This document shows, piece after piece, positions 45,834-56,581 of a stretch of DNA of 64,000 nt; positions within the stretch are counted from its first letter, which is position 1, and each line of letters starts with the position of its first letter. The translations under genes and the position numbers were made by a program. Below the pieces are notes generated by a model. The model was not told the origin of the DNA, ran no database searches, and saw only the letters and a program-made list of their open reading frames with translations. The stretch is from IMG/VR virus record IMGVR_UViG_3300024261_000006, positions 89,119-153,118 of that record, one strand, 5' to 3'. This DNA is from a virus.

Positions 45834-46315
45834 TACAAATACCTTTGTACAATCTCTTTTTTTATTTTAAATTTTCCTTTGTCTATTGACAACATGTTAA
45901 TTATTATATTATTATCTGTTTCGTTTTTTTCTAGGACAATGTTTCCTGATTGTTCGTTTTCAATCAAGAATTCTGTCAATTCCCAGTCTGAAACGTGGAG
46001 TTGATTTTTTTCTAAAACATCGACAAGTCTTTCATAACCTTGTGATACTAAATTAAACTTTACGTCTTCTTTTGTCAATACTAAGCTGTTTAATCCTTCT
46101 ATTCCCCACTTAAGATCACTTTTAAAAACCTCGTGTACTTTATGAACAATATCACAATTTTCACAGATAATATACTTTTCTTCTATTTCATCGTTTTCAT
46201 CTAAAACTTTAGAAAAAACAGGGATCTTGTGGTATACAGGAGCTGTTTTGTTTTTAAAAATAGGTAATGTGCATTGACATTCTACTAAATGTTTAACGTA
46301 TTGATTATTATTCAT
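45833..46315 (-). CDS. Zinc-ribbon-like phage protein (160 aa)
   Basis: Starts YVKHLVECQCTLPIFKN (C-x-C) and has ICENCDIVHKVHEV (C-x2-C) near residue 62, giving a four-cysteine metal site. The second half is alpha/beta, with WELTEFLIENEQSG then NIVLEKNE. I recall this architecture in proteins of large marine phages, without an assigned function. It overlaps the chaperonin-like gene upstream by 8 nt and is coupled to the 78-residue gene downstream. Confidence 0.7.
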   Translation of the reverse strand: MNNNQYVKHLVECQCTLPIFKNKTAPVYHKIPVFSKVLDENDEIEEKYIICENCDIVHKVHEVFKSDLKWGIEGLNSLVLTKEDVKFNLVSQGYERLVDVLEKNQLHVSDWELTEFLIENEQSGNIVLEKNETDNNIIINMLSIDKGKFKIKKEIVQRYL

Positions 46316-47501
46316 CTTCTTTAATCTTTAAGACATATCCAATATTATTGAAATTTTTCTTCATGCTAATTGATAAGTTTTTCATTGCGTTTATTACGTT
46401 TTTTGGGTATAAAAAACCATTATATACTGTAAAGCCTGAAATTGCTGCATTATTATAATACCTTATAATTGATTTTATTTCATTTATAAGTCTAATATCA
46501 CTTTCAGGAATCTTTACTTCAACAATATTAGGTGATATCCTTTTCTTTCTTTTATGTAAATACTTTAATAAGTCTTTATCACTAACTACAGCTAGCTTTT
46601 CATTTATTTCTTTTGACAAATCATCTTCTGGCTCGAATATTTCAATGAAAGCTGTGCTTAATCTTAATTTTTTAATAGAAGAGTTTCCGACTAAATCTTT
46701 ATTAAAAGACCCGCCAGACTCTACAGACAATAGCTTTGAGCCCAAGGCTTTAGATATGTCGCTTAATAAAAAAGGATCATTATTATCAAACTTTATCAAA
46801 TAAGGATATAGCTTTATGTTATTTTTTAATAATATACTTTTTATATTTCTAATCGCACTATCTGATATTCCTCTGCAGAACAAAACTATAGGAAGATTGT
46901 TTAATTTTGCATGTTCAAATATTTCATTTATTTCTGATTCTCGCTCTATGTAAGAATCCATTGCTACAGTTATAAAATCTTTGGTTGTAGTTTTTTGATT
47001 AGAAAAGTATATTCCTCTAAAATCTTCGTGTATGTTAATGCTTATCTTAGGCTGATTGCTCTTTTTAATTTCTATTTCATTGTTCTTACTAGGAATACAA
47101 ACAATAGAAGCATCGGGACCAGAGAAATTCAGTATATTGAAAATTAGCCTTCTATTTTTTTCTTCCATTACGAATTGATCGAGCAACTTTTTAAATGTTT
47201 CTATTTTTTTACCAGTTAATCTTTTTTCTTCAATGTTATTGTTACTATTAAAAATTTCTAAAAACATTTCTGACAGTATATAAGATCCTCCTGGAACATA
47301 ATTCTCAGCCTTTAAAAGATAATTAAATAATAAATTTCTATACGGATTATCTTTTATTCTTTCGTCTAACAAAATATTGTTAAAAAACAAAAACTTGCTG
47401 TTATATACATTTTTGTTTGTATAATACCTAAACTTATTTTCTTTGTTTTTTTTGCATAAAACTTTTAATGCACTATGTAATGATAATAAGTTGCTATTCA
47501 T
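46308..47501 (-). CDS. Diverged chaperonin (Cpn60/GroEL)-like protein
   Basis: 397 residues. Residues 152-290 follow the order of a GroEL apical domain: EDFRGIYFSNQ (GroEL RGYLSPYFxN), LPIVLFCRGISDSAIRNIKS (PLLIIAEDVEGEALxTLV), YLIKFDNNDPFLLSDISKAL (VKAPGFGDRRKxMLxDIAxL) and GSKLLSVESG (GGTVISEE). Residues 63-82 (LKAENYVPGGSYILSEMFLE) align with the GroEL ATP-site helix but have GGSY where the DGTTT motif should be. ATP hydrolysis is therefore doubtful, and the equatorial domain is much reduced. It may assist capsid or fibre folding, or modify a host chaperonin. The assignment is by eye. Confidence 0.65.
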   Translation of the reverse strand: MNSNLLSLHSALKVLCKKNKENKFRYYTNKNVYNSKFLFFNNILLDERIKDNPYRNLLFNYLLKAENYVPGGSYILSEMFLEIFNSNNNIEEKRLTGKKIETFKKLLDQFVMEEKNRRLIFNILNFSGPDASIVCIPSKNNEIEIKKSNQPKISINIHEDFRGIYFSNQKTTTKDFITVAMDSYIERESEINEIFEHAKLNNLPIVLFCRGISDSAIRNIKSILLKNNIKLYPYLIKFDNNDPFLLSDISKALGSKLLSVESGGSFNKDLVGNSSIKKLRLSTAFIEIFEPEDDLSKEINEKLAVVSDKDLLKYLHKRKKRISPNIVEVKIPESDIRLINEIKSIIRYYNNAAISGFTVYNGFLYPKNVINAMKNLSISMKKNFNNIGYVLKIKEDE

Positions 47502-49921: not shown

Positions 49922-50415
49922 AATTTCCTTAAATTCTGAATGAATAAATTTGATTCTGCTTCTGTATTGAAGTATTTTACTTCTCTTGATGTGTCAATTA
50001 TATATGTTACAGTCCACTTTCCCGTATTAGGACATATTGTGGCTTCTATGCTTTTAAATACAGGAACAGCGTCATCAGCTGACTTTAAAGTATTTAAAGT
50101 AAGAATTGCTTCATTGCCTATAGGATCTGTATTTACAGTATGCAAATTTCTTCCAACTGCTTCACTTAGTTTTTTTTTAACTCTATCCAATATGTCTTTA
50201 GATATAGCAGTAATATGACTACTATTAAAATATCTTATATCGTTATTAATATAGATGTTTTCTATTAATTGTTCAATTCTAGTTAGGTTTAGATTCTTTT
50301 CTTTTGCTAGTCTATTGATTTCTTCATTTAAATATTTATTGCTAACTTCATCCAATAGAATAGAACACCTATTATATCTTAACTCATTTAAGATAATTTT
50401 ATTATTTTTTTTCAT
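49918..50415 (-). CDS. Unknown protein (165 aa)
   Basis: The first 95 residues are helical and basic (IILNELRYNRCSILLDEVSN...). The rest is beta-rich (KSIEATICPNTGKWTVTYII, then DTSREVKYFNTEAESNLFIQ). The last part has the shape of a small antiparallel sheet with two cysteines. I do not recognise a family. It overlaps the small membrane protein gene upstream by 14 nt. Confidence 0.65.
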   Translation of the reverse strand: MKKNNKIILNELRYNRCSILLDEVSNKYLNEEINRLAKEKNLNLTRIEQLIENIYINNDIRYFNSSHITAISKDILDRVKKKLSEAVGRNLHTVNTDPIGNEAILTLNTLKSADDAVPVFKSIEATICPNTGKWTVTYIIDTSREVKYFNTEAESNLFIQNLRKF

Positions 50416-50683
50416 TTTTTTGTTGCTCTATTGGCTTTTCTTCGTCTTTATCAAATATTTCTACTGCAGCATTAACATATTTGTCCAGCGCTGCCTGTCC
50501 TAGTATATAACCTATCTGAATGAATCCAGATACTATGACAGTTGTAACTAAAAGCGCAAGTGAATAATGATCAATCTTTCCTTGTATTTGATACAACAGG
50601 AATAAAATTATTAACTTCCATCCAAACTCTGCTAATAGATAAGCAATGAACTTTTTTGATTTCAAGGGCATTTTGTCTTGCAT
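50402..50683 (-). CDS. Small two-span membrane protein (93 aa)
   Basis: Two hydrophobic segments, about residues 12-32 (LLAEFGWKLIILFLLYQIQG) and 38-60 (LALLVTTVIVSGFIQIGYIL), are followed by a charged Glu/Lys tail. It could be a holin-like or membrane-adaptor protein; the size and two spans fit, but nothing proves it. It is divergent from the cyclase gene, with a 50-nt gap. Confidence 0.65.
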   Translation of the reverse strand: MQDKMPLKSKKFIAYLLAEFGWKLIILFLLYQIQGKIDHYSLALLVTTVIVSGFIQIGYILGQAALDKYVNAAVEIFDKDEEKPIEQQKNEKK

Positions 50684-50733: not shown

Positions 50734-51600
50734 ATGTCACCTATAACTTTAAAAGAAAAAAATCTTGCTATAGTTCTATTAGATATAATAGACTCAACTG
50801 CTTTTGTTCAAAAGTATGGCGCTGTAAAAGCTGCTGAGTGGTTTCAATATCACGACAGAATGGCAAGAAATCTATGCTATAAATTTCAAGGAAGAGAAAT
50901 AGATAGAAGTGACGGCTTCTTAATGTCTTTTGACACTACAATAGACGCTGTTAATTTTGCCTTGCACTACCAAAAAACTATACCACAAAAAACAAAATTA
51001 GATACAAGAATAGGTATTCACTGGGGTAAAGTAATAGAAGTTCAACAAGATGAACTATATGCACTTATGGGTGCTAAGGGCGTTGAACTCGAAGGAATTG
51101 GCAAAAATATCGCTGCTCGAACTATGAGCATTTGTGGTCCAAAGCAAGTTCTTTTGACTAAAGAAGCATTTTCAGCAATTAAGAATAGAACTAATCATTG
51201 GACACCAAAAGGCACTAGATATGTAATGGTGGGTCTATATAAGTTTAAAGGTGTAGCAGAGACTCAAGTTATATACGCTGTAGGAGAATTAATCGAATCA
51301 CTACAACCTCCAGAGGGCAACGAAAAAGCTAAAAGACTTGGTGGACCAAAAAAAGTAAAAAGTAAGCTGCGAGATAAAAAAATAAAAGAATTGACACTAT
51401 GGTTGCTACCAAAACTTGCTGTTATATCAATATTTTATATTATATGCATAACTTGGCCTTTTATCTCTAACAGCGAATCGAAAAATCTCTGGGGTGTCGA
51501 CTATTTAATATTAAAACCTTTCGAATACTTAGATGTAGTAAGGGATTTCATTGTTGAAAATTTAAAACCTCTAATAAGAAAAATAAAAGACATAATATAA
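50734..51600 (+). CDS. Class III nucleotidyl cyclase with C-terminal membrane anchor
   Basis: 288 residues. The cyclase domain is complete at motif level: D17 in VLLDIIDSTAF and D60 in DRSDGFLMSF are the two metal-binding aspartates, and N125/R129 in GIGKNIAARTMS is the transition-state pair. RIGIHWGKV gives the core beta strand. The position that is Lys in adenylyl cyclases (four before the second Asp) appears to be Ile56, so the base specificity is open. Residues about 222-247 (LWLLPKLAVISIFYIICITW) are a membrane span, leaving a 40-residue tail. The enzyme may make a cyclic nucleotide signal at the membrane. It is unusual in a phage. Confidence 0.85.
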   Translation: MSPITLKEKNLAIVLLDIIDSTAFVQKYGAVKAAEWFQYHDRMARNLCYKFQGREIDRSDGFLMSFDTTIDAVNFALHYQKTIPQKTKLDTRIGIHWGKVIEVQQDELYALMGAKGVELEGIGKNIAARTMSICGPKQVLLTKEAFSAIKNRTNHWTPKGTRYVMVGLYKFKGVAETQVIYAVGELIESLQPPEGNEKAKRLGGPKKVKSKLRDKKIKELTLWLLPKLAVISIFYIICITWPFISNSESKNLWGVDYLILKPFEYLDVVRDFIVENLKPLIRKIKDII

Positions 51601-51609
51601 AGAAAAAAA

Positions 51610-51681
51610 ATGATTTCTATAAAGAAGCAAAAAAATAAAACAGGAATAGATGGATATGCTACGGCTGTAGGTGAAAAATGA
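51610..51681 (+). CDS. Micro-ORF (23 aa), possible remnant of a neighbour
   Basis: MISIKKQKNKTGIDGYATAV and a short end (GEK). Its stop overlaps the start of the next gene (ATGA). The stretch TGIDGYATAV is similar at DNA and protein level to VGIDGSVAAV in the 52593-53027 gene, so it looks like the tail fragment of a fourth copy. It may still be translated for coupling. Confidence 0.4.
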   Translation: MISIKKQKNKTGIDGYATAVGEK

Positions 51682-52094
51682 CTTATATAAAAAATACTGC
51701 TAGAGAAGTTTCACCTTTCGATATAGGAAAAATATCAGGAACTACAGACGCCACGTTTAATACTTTTAATGTTAACTGGTTAAGCTTGAGTGGAGACAAT
51801 ATACTATCCTCTGATAATAGCAGCTATTATAGTGAGGCTTGTTTTTCTCCAAACTCAAATGCTTACGGACTAGCTAGAATTCATTACAGCGGCAATACTA
51901 GTAATTTACATCTAATGGGATCAAATATGCCTGAAAGTTCTATTACTGGTGCTGGCGCATCTGTAAGAAGCGATGACATTGCTATTTATAACGGTAATTC
52001 ACACTATCCAAAATATCAAAACTCTCTTTCAATAACACTAGCACAAGATGTTGAAAGAGCAAATATGAAAATAATAAGAATAGATCTGTCATGA
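51678..52094 (+). CDS. Small beta-rich protein, first of a tandem triplet (138 aa)
   Basis: Starts MTYIKNTAREVSPFDIGKIS and is rich in Ser, Asn, Gly and short strands, as in virion decoration or C1q-like jelly-roll proteins. No signal peptide is seen. The neighbours at 52091 (MTYIKD) and 52593 (MTHISV) begin in a similar way, so all three may share a docking end. It overlaps the next gene by ATGA. Role on the capsid or fibre is inferred. Confidence 0.65.
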   Translation: MTYIKNTAREVSPFDIGKISGTTDATFNTFNVNWLSLSGDNILSSDNSSYYSEACFSPNSNAYGLARIHYSGNTSNLHLMGSNMPESSITGAGASVRSDDIAIYNGNSHYPKYQNSLSITLAQDVERANMKIIRIDLS

Positions 52095-52591
52095 CTTATA
52101 TTAAAGACATTATTAACAAAAAAATAAATGGAAATCTAAATATTTATCACAGCGGTTCAGCGACAATAGGGCAAGATGAACCTGTTACATGGTCTAGTTT
52201 AGACTCTAGTTTTAGCAATAATTTTTCTTTAACAAAAAACGGAGCACAATTTACATTGCCAAATGACAGCAAAACATATATTTTAGAAGCTAATTTGACT
52301 TCTAATACACATCTAGCTAGTGGAGGACTTGATTCATATGTAACATACCAGTGGTATGACGTAACAAATGCTGCTTATGTAGGAATAAAAGCTTTTATCG
52401 CTGGATCTTATAATTATAATGAAGGCAGAACGTTCGGTACTGTAGCTGATGAAAAAGCAATATTTATAACAAATCAAAACAACGCATATGAGCTAAGAAT
52501 ACTAAACGCAGTTGGTATAGATGATATTGACGATGATGACTCGAGTCAAATCTACGCAGGAAGAGCAAGATGTTGTATATGGAGACTTTAA
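52091..52591 (+). CDS. Small beta-rich protein, second of a tandem triplet (166 aa)
   Basis: Begins MTYIKDIINKKINGNLNIYH. The middle, NFSLTKNGAQFTLPNDSKTY then ILEANLT, and the end AGRARCCIWRL have the strand layout of TNF/C1q-like jelly rolls (F-x-L-P-x-x-x-x-Y-x-[IL]). It is the middle member of the MT-[YH]-I triplet, coupled by ATGA to the one before and only 1 nt from the next. Confidence 0.65.
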   Translation: MTYIKDIINKKINGNLNIYHSGSATIGQDEPVTWSSLDSSFSNNFSLTKNGAQFTLPNDSKTYILEANLTSNTHLASGGLDSYVTYQWYDVTNAAYVGIKAFIAGSYNYNEGRTFGTVADEKAIFITNQNNAYELRILNAVGIDDIDDDDSSQIYAGRARCCIWRL

Positions 52592-52592
52592 C

Positions 52593-53027
52593 ATGACACA
52601 TATATCTGTAGAATATAAAACGATGAAGGTTGCGTTTATAAAAACAAACAACTCAGGCAATTTGTCTTTAAATGACTTAGTTGACTTTAATACTGCAGCT
52701 ATTTATAATAATACCAATGGAACAACAATAAATTCAGATAATATTGTTATATCCTCTGGACACTATCTTATAGAGTGTTGTCTAGGTATAAATAATTCAA
52801 ACAATATTTCAAACTATGCTGAATGGAACATACTAGTAGACAATGTTGAGCAAGACACTAAAGGTTCATCTACACAAGACAATAAAGTAGGAATAGATGG
52901 ATCTGTTGCAGCTGTAACAGTTGAGTCAGGTACAAAGACCGTTAAAGTAAAAGTTACTGCTGTAGGTGGTACATGTTCTATAAACAACGACTTCTCTTAT
53001 CTTCTAATTAAAAAAGTTGACATATAA
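52593..53027 (+). CDS. Small beta-rich protein, third of a tandem triplet (144 aa)
   Basis: The ATG at 52593 is chosen rather than the longer frame from 52521. It follows the previous stop by 1 nt, is preceded by GGAGAC, and gives the same MT[HY]I start as its neighbours. The body (NIVISSGHYLIECCLGINNS, TKTVKVKVTAVGGT, YLLIKKVDI) is again jelly-roll-like. It may be a trimer-forming tip or capsid decoration protein. Confidence 0.65.
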   Translation: MTHISVEYKTMKVAFIKTNNSGNLSLNDLVDFNTAAIYNNTNGTTINSDNIVISSGHYLIECCLGINNSNNISNYAEWNILVDNVEQDTKGSSTQDNKVGIDGSVAAVTVESGTKTVKVKVTAVGGTCSINNDFSYLLIKKVDI

Positions 53028-55813: not shown

Positions 55814-56581
55814 ATGAAAAGCATAATATCAACATTAATAATAGTATTGCTTTCTTGCAATACTTTGTTTGCGCAAGTAAACATTGAATCTTTTAGGAAC
55901 TCAGCAACTAAAACAGGCTTTTACGGAGAGTTTAAAGTAAATATTCAATTTCAAAAAGGCAATGTTAATTCTCAAGTATACGAAATTAAAAAAGACTTAC
56001 ACTATAAATTAAACAAAAATCATATCTTGCTAAAGGGTTCAGCAAGCAAAGGATTTCAAGACAAAGAGATTTACAAGAATAACGCTTTTGTCCACTTTAG
56101 ATATACTATTATGTTGCATGAATTTTTAGGATATGAAATATTTACTCAAACTCAGTATAATGAATTTAGAGACTTAAGCTTAAGACAACTCAATGGTGTC
56201 GGTATAAGATTTGAAAAGCCTCTACAAAACAATAATCTTTTCCAAATATCTTCAGGTTTAGGCATAATGTCAGATCATGAGCAATTATCTTATGAAACAA
56301 CAACACACTCAAGAATAACTTCTTATTTTACTTTAACAAAATATTTCAATGAAAATGATTCCAGTTTTGTCTCTGTTGTAACTTACTATCAGCCCTTATT
56401 GTTTAATCATAGTGACTATAGAATTAATAGCGAGATTAAACTTAGATCTTCTATTGTTAATAGAAGTGAATATAGTCTAGGAATAGATACAGCTATTACT
56501 TATTTGTACGACACAGTACCGTCAGAAAAAGTAGAAAATACAGACTTTATGCTGAAAGGTGGAATAATTTTTAGTTGGTAA
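55814..56581 (+). CDS. Exported outer-membrane barrel-like protein (DUF481-like)
   Basis: Residues 1-21 are a clean signal peptide (MKSIISTLIIVLLSCNTLFA, then Q). The mature part, FYGEFKVNIQFQKGNVNSQV, then YEIKKDLHYKLNKNHILLKG and many alternating strands to a final aromatic (GGIIFSW), fits the DUF481-type outer-membrane barrel with its [GS]-x-x-x-x-x-x-x-x-x-x-x-KGNxxxxxY start. The C-terminal W is typical of outer-membrane proteins. It follows the CHAP gene by 17 nt. A phage-encoded barrel could alter the host surface, for example against superinfection. The gene probably came from a host. Confidence 0.75.
   Translation: MKSIISTLIIVLLSCNTLFAQVNIESFRNSATKTGFYGEFKVNIQFQKGNVNSQVYEIKKDLHYKLNKNHILLKGSASKGFQDKEIYKNNAFVHFRYTIMLHEFLGYEIFTQTQYNEFRDLSLRQLNGVGIRFEKPLQNNNLFQISSGLGIMSDHEQLSYETTTHSRITSYFTLTKYFNENDSSFVSVVTYYQPLLFNHSDYRINSEIKLRSSIVNRSEYSLGIDTAITYLYDTVPSEKVENTDFMLKGGIIFSW

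Follow-up and report, generated by a model that had tools for sequence, protein, structure and literature searches.

Identification and fold of the cyclase

The DNA analysed here, referred to as the window, comprises the terminal 64,000 nucleotides of an IMG/VR virus record of 153,118 bp (IMGVR_UViG_3300024261_000006, positions 89,119 to 153,118). Its phage origin is clear from matches to PHROG families for baseplate wedge, structural protein, PhoH and a DinG-like helicase; no tRNAs were detected in the window. The forward strand carries the gene of a class III nucleotidyl cyclase, designated CYC, and, starting 1.4 kb downstream of it, the gene of a small membrane protein, designated c0, which is the obligate partner of the cyclase. 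The strand opposite to the cyclase gene (positions 50734–51600) is stop-rich.

As a single sequence, CYC matched the adenylyl cyclases Rv1900c from Mycobacterium tuberculosis (E-value of 4e-8) and Ma1120 from Mycobacterium avium (approximately 2e-4) in phmmer searches, and the profile of the CYC family yielded 1.2e-21 and 8e-17, respectively. The AlphaFold2 model of CYC, with a mean predicted local distance difference test (pLDDT) score of 94, superimposes on both structures with TMt of 0.90–0.92 and E-values around 1e-13 in Foldseek. The Pfam family Guanylate_cyc gave 21.5 bits with the single CYC sequence, i.e. 0.4 bits short of the cut-off of 21.9, and the best named family was TIGR04510 (E-value of 2.4e-44), which covers the cyclase domain only (residues 12–201). 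It is evident that the homology of CYC to class III cyclases lies far above chance. A preliminary description of this DNA had proposed a phage-encoded class III nucleotidyl cyclase with a membrane anchor; the former is confirmed by the profile searches, the Foldseek superposition, the TIGR04510 match and the phage record, and the latter by a transmembrane helix predicted at about residues 217–245.

The predicted order of elements in CYC is an N-terminal cytoplasmic catalytic domain, a basic linker, one transmembrane helix and a C-terminal tail, the last being variable and missing in many homologues. The catalytic domain begins at about residue 8, and CYC has neither an N-terminal transducing helix nor a coiled coil of its own.

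Catalytic residues and base-recognition site

The catalytic positions were examined in 133 unique homologues from viral contigs, 125 of which could be read by an automatic motif; the other eight, forming an alternative subfamily, were not fitted by it. Wherever the motif could be read, D57 and both metal-binding aspartates (D17 and D60) showed no variation. Of the transition-state pair, R129 is present in all 125 motif-parsed homologues and N125 in 123, the remaining two having alanine, and E118 is invariant in the same 125 sequences. The alternative subfamily is characterized by asparagine at the position of E118 and by a D(A/N/S)SDG loop. The metal-binding aspartates and the Asn/Arg pair had been regarded as intact and the base-specificity position as other than the usual lysine in the preliminary description, and these readings of a single sequence hold for the family, the latter position being an invariant aspartate.

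According to the profile alignment, D57 corresponds to the lysine of Ma1120 (K101) and to an asparagine of Rv1900c, and E118 to the second base-recognition residue. In Ma1120, K101 is paired with D157, and that enzyme is active despite missing the asparagine (PMC4215837). The base-site residues of CYC also differ from the published residue sets of Pycsar cyclases (PMC11224242). Since the Lys/Asp pair is replaced by D57 and E118, the base pocket of CYC has neither the residue pair canonical for ATP recognition nor that for GTP, and with these residues more than one cyclic nucleotide is conceivable as product, in line with the preliminary description. The invariant Asp/Glu base site poses a sharp question concerning the nucleotide that would be made. 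The ratio of non-synonymous to synonymous substitution rates (dN/dS) did not exceed 0.11 in those pairs whose dS was unsaturated; the CYC-c0 pair is under purifying selection, the catalytic residues of CYC strongly so.

Association of the cyclase with c0

Clustering of the open reading frames (ORFs) of 90 cyclase loci revealed that a single other gene, encoding a protein of about 160 residues, is present in all of them, namely c0. The reverse search, starting from c0 and matching at least 289 viral contigs, recovered the cyclase in all loci but two, both of which start at c0. Among all fetched loci (144 unique by sequence; individual loci are given below as L numbers), 133 contain both genes; the cyclase stands alone in nine and c0 in two, and as all of these 11 one-gene loci are cut at the end of the contig or of the fetched region, none of them is a counterexample. 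The cyclase precedes c0 in 132 loci, the order being reversed in one, and the two genes are usually separated by a few bases or overlap (median gap of 5 bp; 127 loci within 100 bp). The three ORFs that lie between them in the window phage are usually missing from other loci. The view of the preliminary description that no effector protein was obvious nearby is therefore not supported, a protein with two predicted transmembrane helices accompanying the cyclase in every sufficiently long locus.

The most conserved stretch of c0 comprises its second transmembrane helix and the beginning of the coiled coil. Because the model of c0 has a mean pLDDT of 75, only its helices are trusted; a search of the Protein Data Bank (PDB) with the predicted fold gave no match.

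Genomic context and distribution among phages

Table 1. Position of the cyclase, its functional elements, c0 and neighbouring genes in the window
Feature	Position	Strand	Remark
93-residue membrane protein	50402..50683	-	weakly holin-like; 15 further fetched loci, the majority from large phages, have homologues close to the module
CYC, class III nucleotidyl cyclase, 288 aa	50734..51600	+	open reading frame; catalytic domain about residues 8-185, cytoplasmic
D17, first metal-binding Asp	50782..50784	+	invariant
D57, base-recognition position	50902..50904	+	always Asp in the CYC family; Ma1120 has Lys and Rv1900c Asn here
D60, second metal-binding Asp	50911..50913	+	invariant
E118, second base-recognition position	51085..51087	+	canonical adenylyl cyclases have Asp here, the alternative phage subfamily has Asn
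N125 to R129, transition-state pair in KNIAAR motif	51106..51120	+	motif reading and profile alignment
Conserved juxtamembrane linker SLQPP..EK.KRLGGP	51298..51348	+	PP...K common to bacterial cyclase-STAND proteins
Transmembrane helix, residues 217-245	51382..51468	+	prediction
Three small ORFs (138, 166 and 168 aa)	51678..53027	+	between CYC and c0; one weakly tail-fibre-like
c0, partner protein, 161 aa	53040..53525	+	transmembrane helices about 22-44 and 50-72, cytoplasmic coiled coil 76-128, conserved C-terminal motif (predicted)
GroEL-like protein	46308..47501	-	weak PHROG match (phrog_5725, 1.5e-8)
Hydrolase-like protein, 464 aa	54402..55796	+	peptidoglycan-hydrolase-like by eye; no Pfam match
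DUF481 protein	55814..56581	+	Pfam 1e-14

The cyclase was found in at least 281 viral contigs. In contrast to these hundreds of uncultured contigs, it was missing from all 50,697 records of isolate phages, with two different members used as queries, so that the module has gone unannotated. For c0, the isolate phages yielded only one partial match (29%, E-value of 0.03), and 399 Pseudomonadota genomes only one short weak match within an unrelated frame of 535 residues.

At least three phage backbones that are unrelated to one another carry the module, from about 36 kb up to large phages reaching 312 kb. In the group with a Mu-like portal, whose contigs measure about 36 kb, a search with TerL returned 80 loci; 60 have the cyclase, 18 are too short downstream, and the contigs of the remaining two (L187 and L228) end before the cyclase site and are no true exceptions. 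The module thus looks universal in this group. In many of these Mu-like-headed phages, TerL and the cyclase are separated by ThyX and a dCMP-deaminase-like gene (e.g. L238:7918-9065), an unusual site for nucleotide metabolism. As regards clues to a host, TerL had no close relatives among isolates, and the capsid resembled Mu-type capsids only distantly.

Several neighbours of the module may be mentioned separately. The 93-residue membrane protein encoded next to CYC is a possible third component or a lysis gene. A homologue of the 464-residue hydrolase-like protein is located between the cyclase and c0 in L101 (L101:3827-4939), and the DUF481 protein is found near the module also in L036, L101, L104, L106, L149 and L167. 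The GroEL-like gene of the window adjoins a Nudix-like ORF and the DinG-like helicase. Near the module of L165, in which c0 comes first, there are putative genes of adenylosuccinate synthase and lyase (PurA and PurB), judged by eye (L165:639-2799). In L044 and L045, the cyclase was found by tblastn, yet it is missing from the ORF table of the loci.

Apparent exchange and possible origin of the cyclase

The cyclase is on average more divergent than its partner (mean divergence 0.43 versus 0.33), and the distance matrices of the two proteins show a moderate correlation (Mantel r 0.49, p 2e-4). The loci L101 and L102 come from phages near to that of the window, with the same gene order and with helicases 65–68% identical to that of the window. 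Their c0 is 85% identical to the c0 of the window, but the cyclase occupying the corresponding site shares only 46–47% identity with that of the window and belongs to the subfamily with Asn118, whereas cyclases from other backbones are 60–70% identical to that of the window. Cyclases of this alternative subfamily stand beside c0 in L101, L102, L103, L104, L105, L138, L147, L167 and L173, mostly from the phage lineage of the window and with c0 reaching 85% identity to that of the window. In L149, a phage contig of 168 kb, a TIGR04510-like cyclase of bacterial type, with EIDKTDG and alanine at the position of N125 (L149:4142-5516), groups with bacterial proteins on a long branch and is directly followed by a typical c0. 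With c0 kept while the cyclase differs in L101, L102 and L149, c0 appears to be the constant element and the cyclase to have been exchanged. Should the two cyclase types yield different nucleotides, c0 could not serve as a receptor for just one of these.

The bacterial relatives of the phage cyclases are N-terminal domains of cyclase-STAND-TPR proteins with 31–37% identity, from which the phage proteins, L149 excepted, are separated with full support in a tree that is midpoint-rooted only. Because the motifs GREIDR(S/T)DG and PP...K are shared, these comparisons suggest that the phage cyclase may have been derived from such an N-terminal domain, the transmembrane anchor replacing the STAND part.

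Proposed function

Since the cyclase always travels with c0, an undescribed phage signalling module is suggested. The reading preferred here, although only tentatively, is that CYC and c0 form a phage-encoded, membrane-localised two-gene module for nucleotide signalling in which c0 acts as the effector or switch. CYC would dimerise on the cytoplasmic side of the host membrane, where it would make a 3',5'-cyclic nucleotide, probably by other means than canonical ATP recognition, which is improbable because the Lys/Asp pair is Asp/Glu in CYC. The two proteins would cooperate in the membrane, where the cyclase may control c0. By analogy with known pairs of a cyclase and a membrane effector, the module would most likely act on the membrane of the infected cell, e.g. 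by excluding or punishing a second phage. Defence against competing phages, an option in the preliminary description, may be among its roles. The proposal draws on the reciprocal linkage of the two genes, the invariant catalytic and base-site residues with their low dN/dS, the class III fold with its predicted anchor, the conserved second transmembrane helix and coil start of c0, the spread over unrelated backbones and the retention of c0 where the cyclase has diverged or been exchanged.

The assignment of an effector role to c0 is based on its layout of two transmembrane helices and a coil, on a weak match to SLATT domains and on the nature of SLATT proteins, for which a role as nucleotide-responsive pores was predicted and which occur together with nucleotide-handling effectors (PMC7159879). 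The SLATT effector domains with two transmembrane helices (PF18142 and NF033635) resemble c0 in their predicted combination of these helices with a cytoplasmic helix, and SLATT_fungal was weakly matched by 20 of 22 c0 members (best E-value of 2.1e-5; best of the reversed-sequence controls 0.0027). Several observations weigh against this assignment. The c0 of the window stays below the curated Pfam cut-off for SLATT, with 13.3 versus 26.5 bits, the NCBIfam model gave 14.9 versus 35 bits, and profile-profile comparison of c0 with three bacterial SLATT proteins by hhalign was negative; that c0 is a SLATT protein is therefore not established. No recognisable nucleotide-binding domain was found in c0, a Pfam scan giving no match to PF00027. 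Copies of c0 that are 85% identical are paired with cyclases differing at the base pocket, which speaks against c0 as a receptor for a single nucleotide. Finally, the loci of one large phage group, as far as their length allows a check, all have the pair within the head-gene block, an unusual position for a gene of optional use in defence or competition.

In a broader form, which is possible but carries less weight than the proposal just given, the pair, near-universal in several lineages of uncultured phages, would be a widespread second-messenger system with which phages conduct cyclic-nucleotide signalling of their own: a tethered cyclase with non-canonical base recognition would drive a c0 without cyclic-nucleotide-receptor domain, either excluding rivals or timing lysis, with c0 as the core onto which cyclases with different pockets have been swapped.

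The most serious alternative, somewhat unlikely but modestly behind the effector or switch form, considers c0 to be a regulator, the hairpin and coiled coil of which would serve in trans as sensor and transducing helix of CYC, while the cyclic nucleotide would reprogramme the host via host receptors. Such a role would fit a cyclase devoid of its own transducing helix whose tightly coupled neighbour gene supplies a conserved cytoplasmic coiled coil, and it would agree both with the pairing of one c0 type with divergent cyclases and with the finding that ten large carrier records encode no cyclic-nucleotide-binding domain and hence no phage receptor of that kind. Responses driven by cAMP have also been discussed for an adenylate cyclase of pelagiphage curli clusters (PMC9599517). 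The conservation of the second transmembrane helix of c0, however, exceeds that expected of a mere anchor.

It is considered improbable that lysis or its inhibition is timed by the module, with c0 as a holin-like protein whose firing is set by the cyclase. The topology of c0 with two transmembrane helices would allow it, and the neighbourhood is suggestive in two clades, the module adjoining the holin-like 93-residue protein and the hydrolase-like protein in the clade of the window, and a TIGR02594-like hydrolase in the second backbone (L059/L077). However, no holin family was found among the Pfam and PHROG matches of c0, and the small carriers L238 and L239, in which the CYC-c0 pair is placed between the dCMP deaminase and the portal, appear to hold a separate lysis set (hydrolase, small transmembrane protein and spanin-like pair; recognized by eye, Pfam being silent).

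A decoy or sponge, raised in the preliminary description as one option, would bind nucleoside triphosphates or cyclic nucleotides but produce no messenger, thereby blunting cyclic-nucleotide immunity of the host such as Pycsar. Despite the non-canonical residues of the base site this is very improbable, as the metal and transition-state residues are conserved across the 133 unique sequences under purifying selection, and a decoy would not explain the obligate membrane partner. Compared with all these alternatives, the module with c0 as effector or switch is retained as the working proposal, and as a small two-gene unit it is directly testable.

Comparison with known systems

Class III cyclases are already known, as are pairs of a cyclase and a membrane effector such as Pycsar, and a cyclase has been described from phages at least once. 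An obligate phage pair of cyclase and c0 was not found in the open-access literature searched, in which the pelagiphage curli case was the only phage-encoded cyclase found. There, an adenylate cyclase is located in curli (type VIII secretion system, T8SS) clusters beside CsgF/CsgG, a histidine kinase and FecR (PMC9599517). It is likewise phage-encoded and is set beside CYC here by description rather than by sequence; a Pfam scan of the neighbours of the window gene revealed none of these curli-cluster partners.

With Pycsar (PycC plus PycTM or PycTIR), CYC and c0 share an architecture of two genes, a class III cyclase next to a membrane protein. The likeness is confined to that architecture, and the link to Pycsar drawn in the preliminary description is not supported: PADLOC gave no match for CYC at E-values up to 1, PycC is absent from the matches of the CYC profile in the PDB at E-values up to 0.01 and is not among the nearest solved relatives, and the partner, carried by a phage, is without a cyclic-nucleotide-binding domain, as are the ten large carrier records scanned for it. 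Membership in Pycsar was rejected on these grounds, and a true Pycsar system of phages (PycC with PycTM) has to be given a negligible probability. A partner of the MBL fold (PF12706) was absent from ten carrier records.

The nearest solved structures are those of Rv1900c and Ma1120, with which CYC has the positions of the metal-binding residues and of the arginine in common; Rv1900c, like CYC, is devoid of the lysine. CYC differs from both by an identity of only about 22%, the D57/E118 base site, the membrane anchor, the partner protein and its location in a phage.

Among named families, the cyclase domain of CYC matches TIGR04510 (mod_pep_cyc, putative peptide modification system cyclase), representing cyclase-STAND-TPR proteins such as that of Rubrivivax, on which nothing was found in the open-access literature. 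The bacterial relatives of this type (L018-L025) possess GREIDR(S/T)DG, AK..E..G..K..AAR and PP...K in common with the phage enzyme. In contrast to the full-length family, CYC is without the STAND and TPR parts (288 residues against a model of 814 positions; 152 bits against a cut-off of 400), and it has a transmembrane anchor, the c0 partner and N125 where most of the bacterial relatives have proline; c0 was not found in three genomes with bacterial proteins of the cyclase-STAND type. Phages destroy or sponge host cyclic nucleotides; if the pair described here makes a nucleotide signal and brings along its own membrane partner, it would place the phage on the signalling side.
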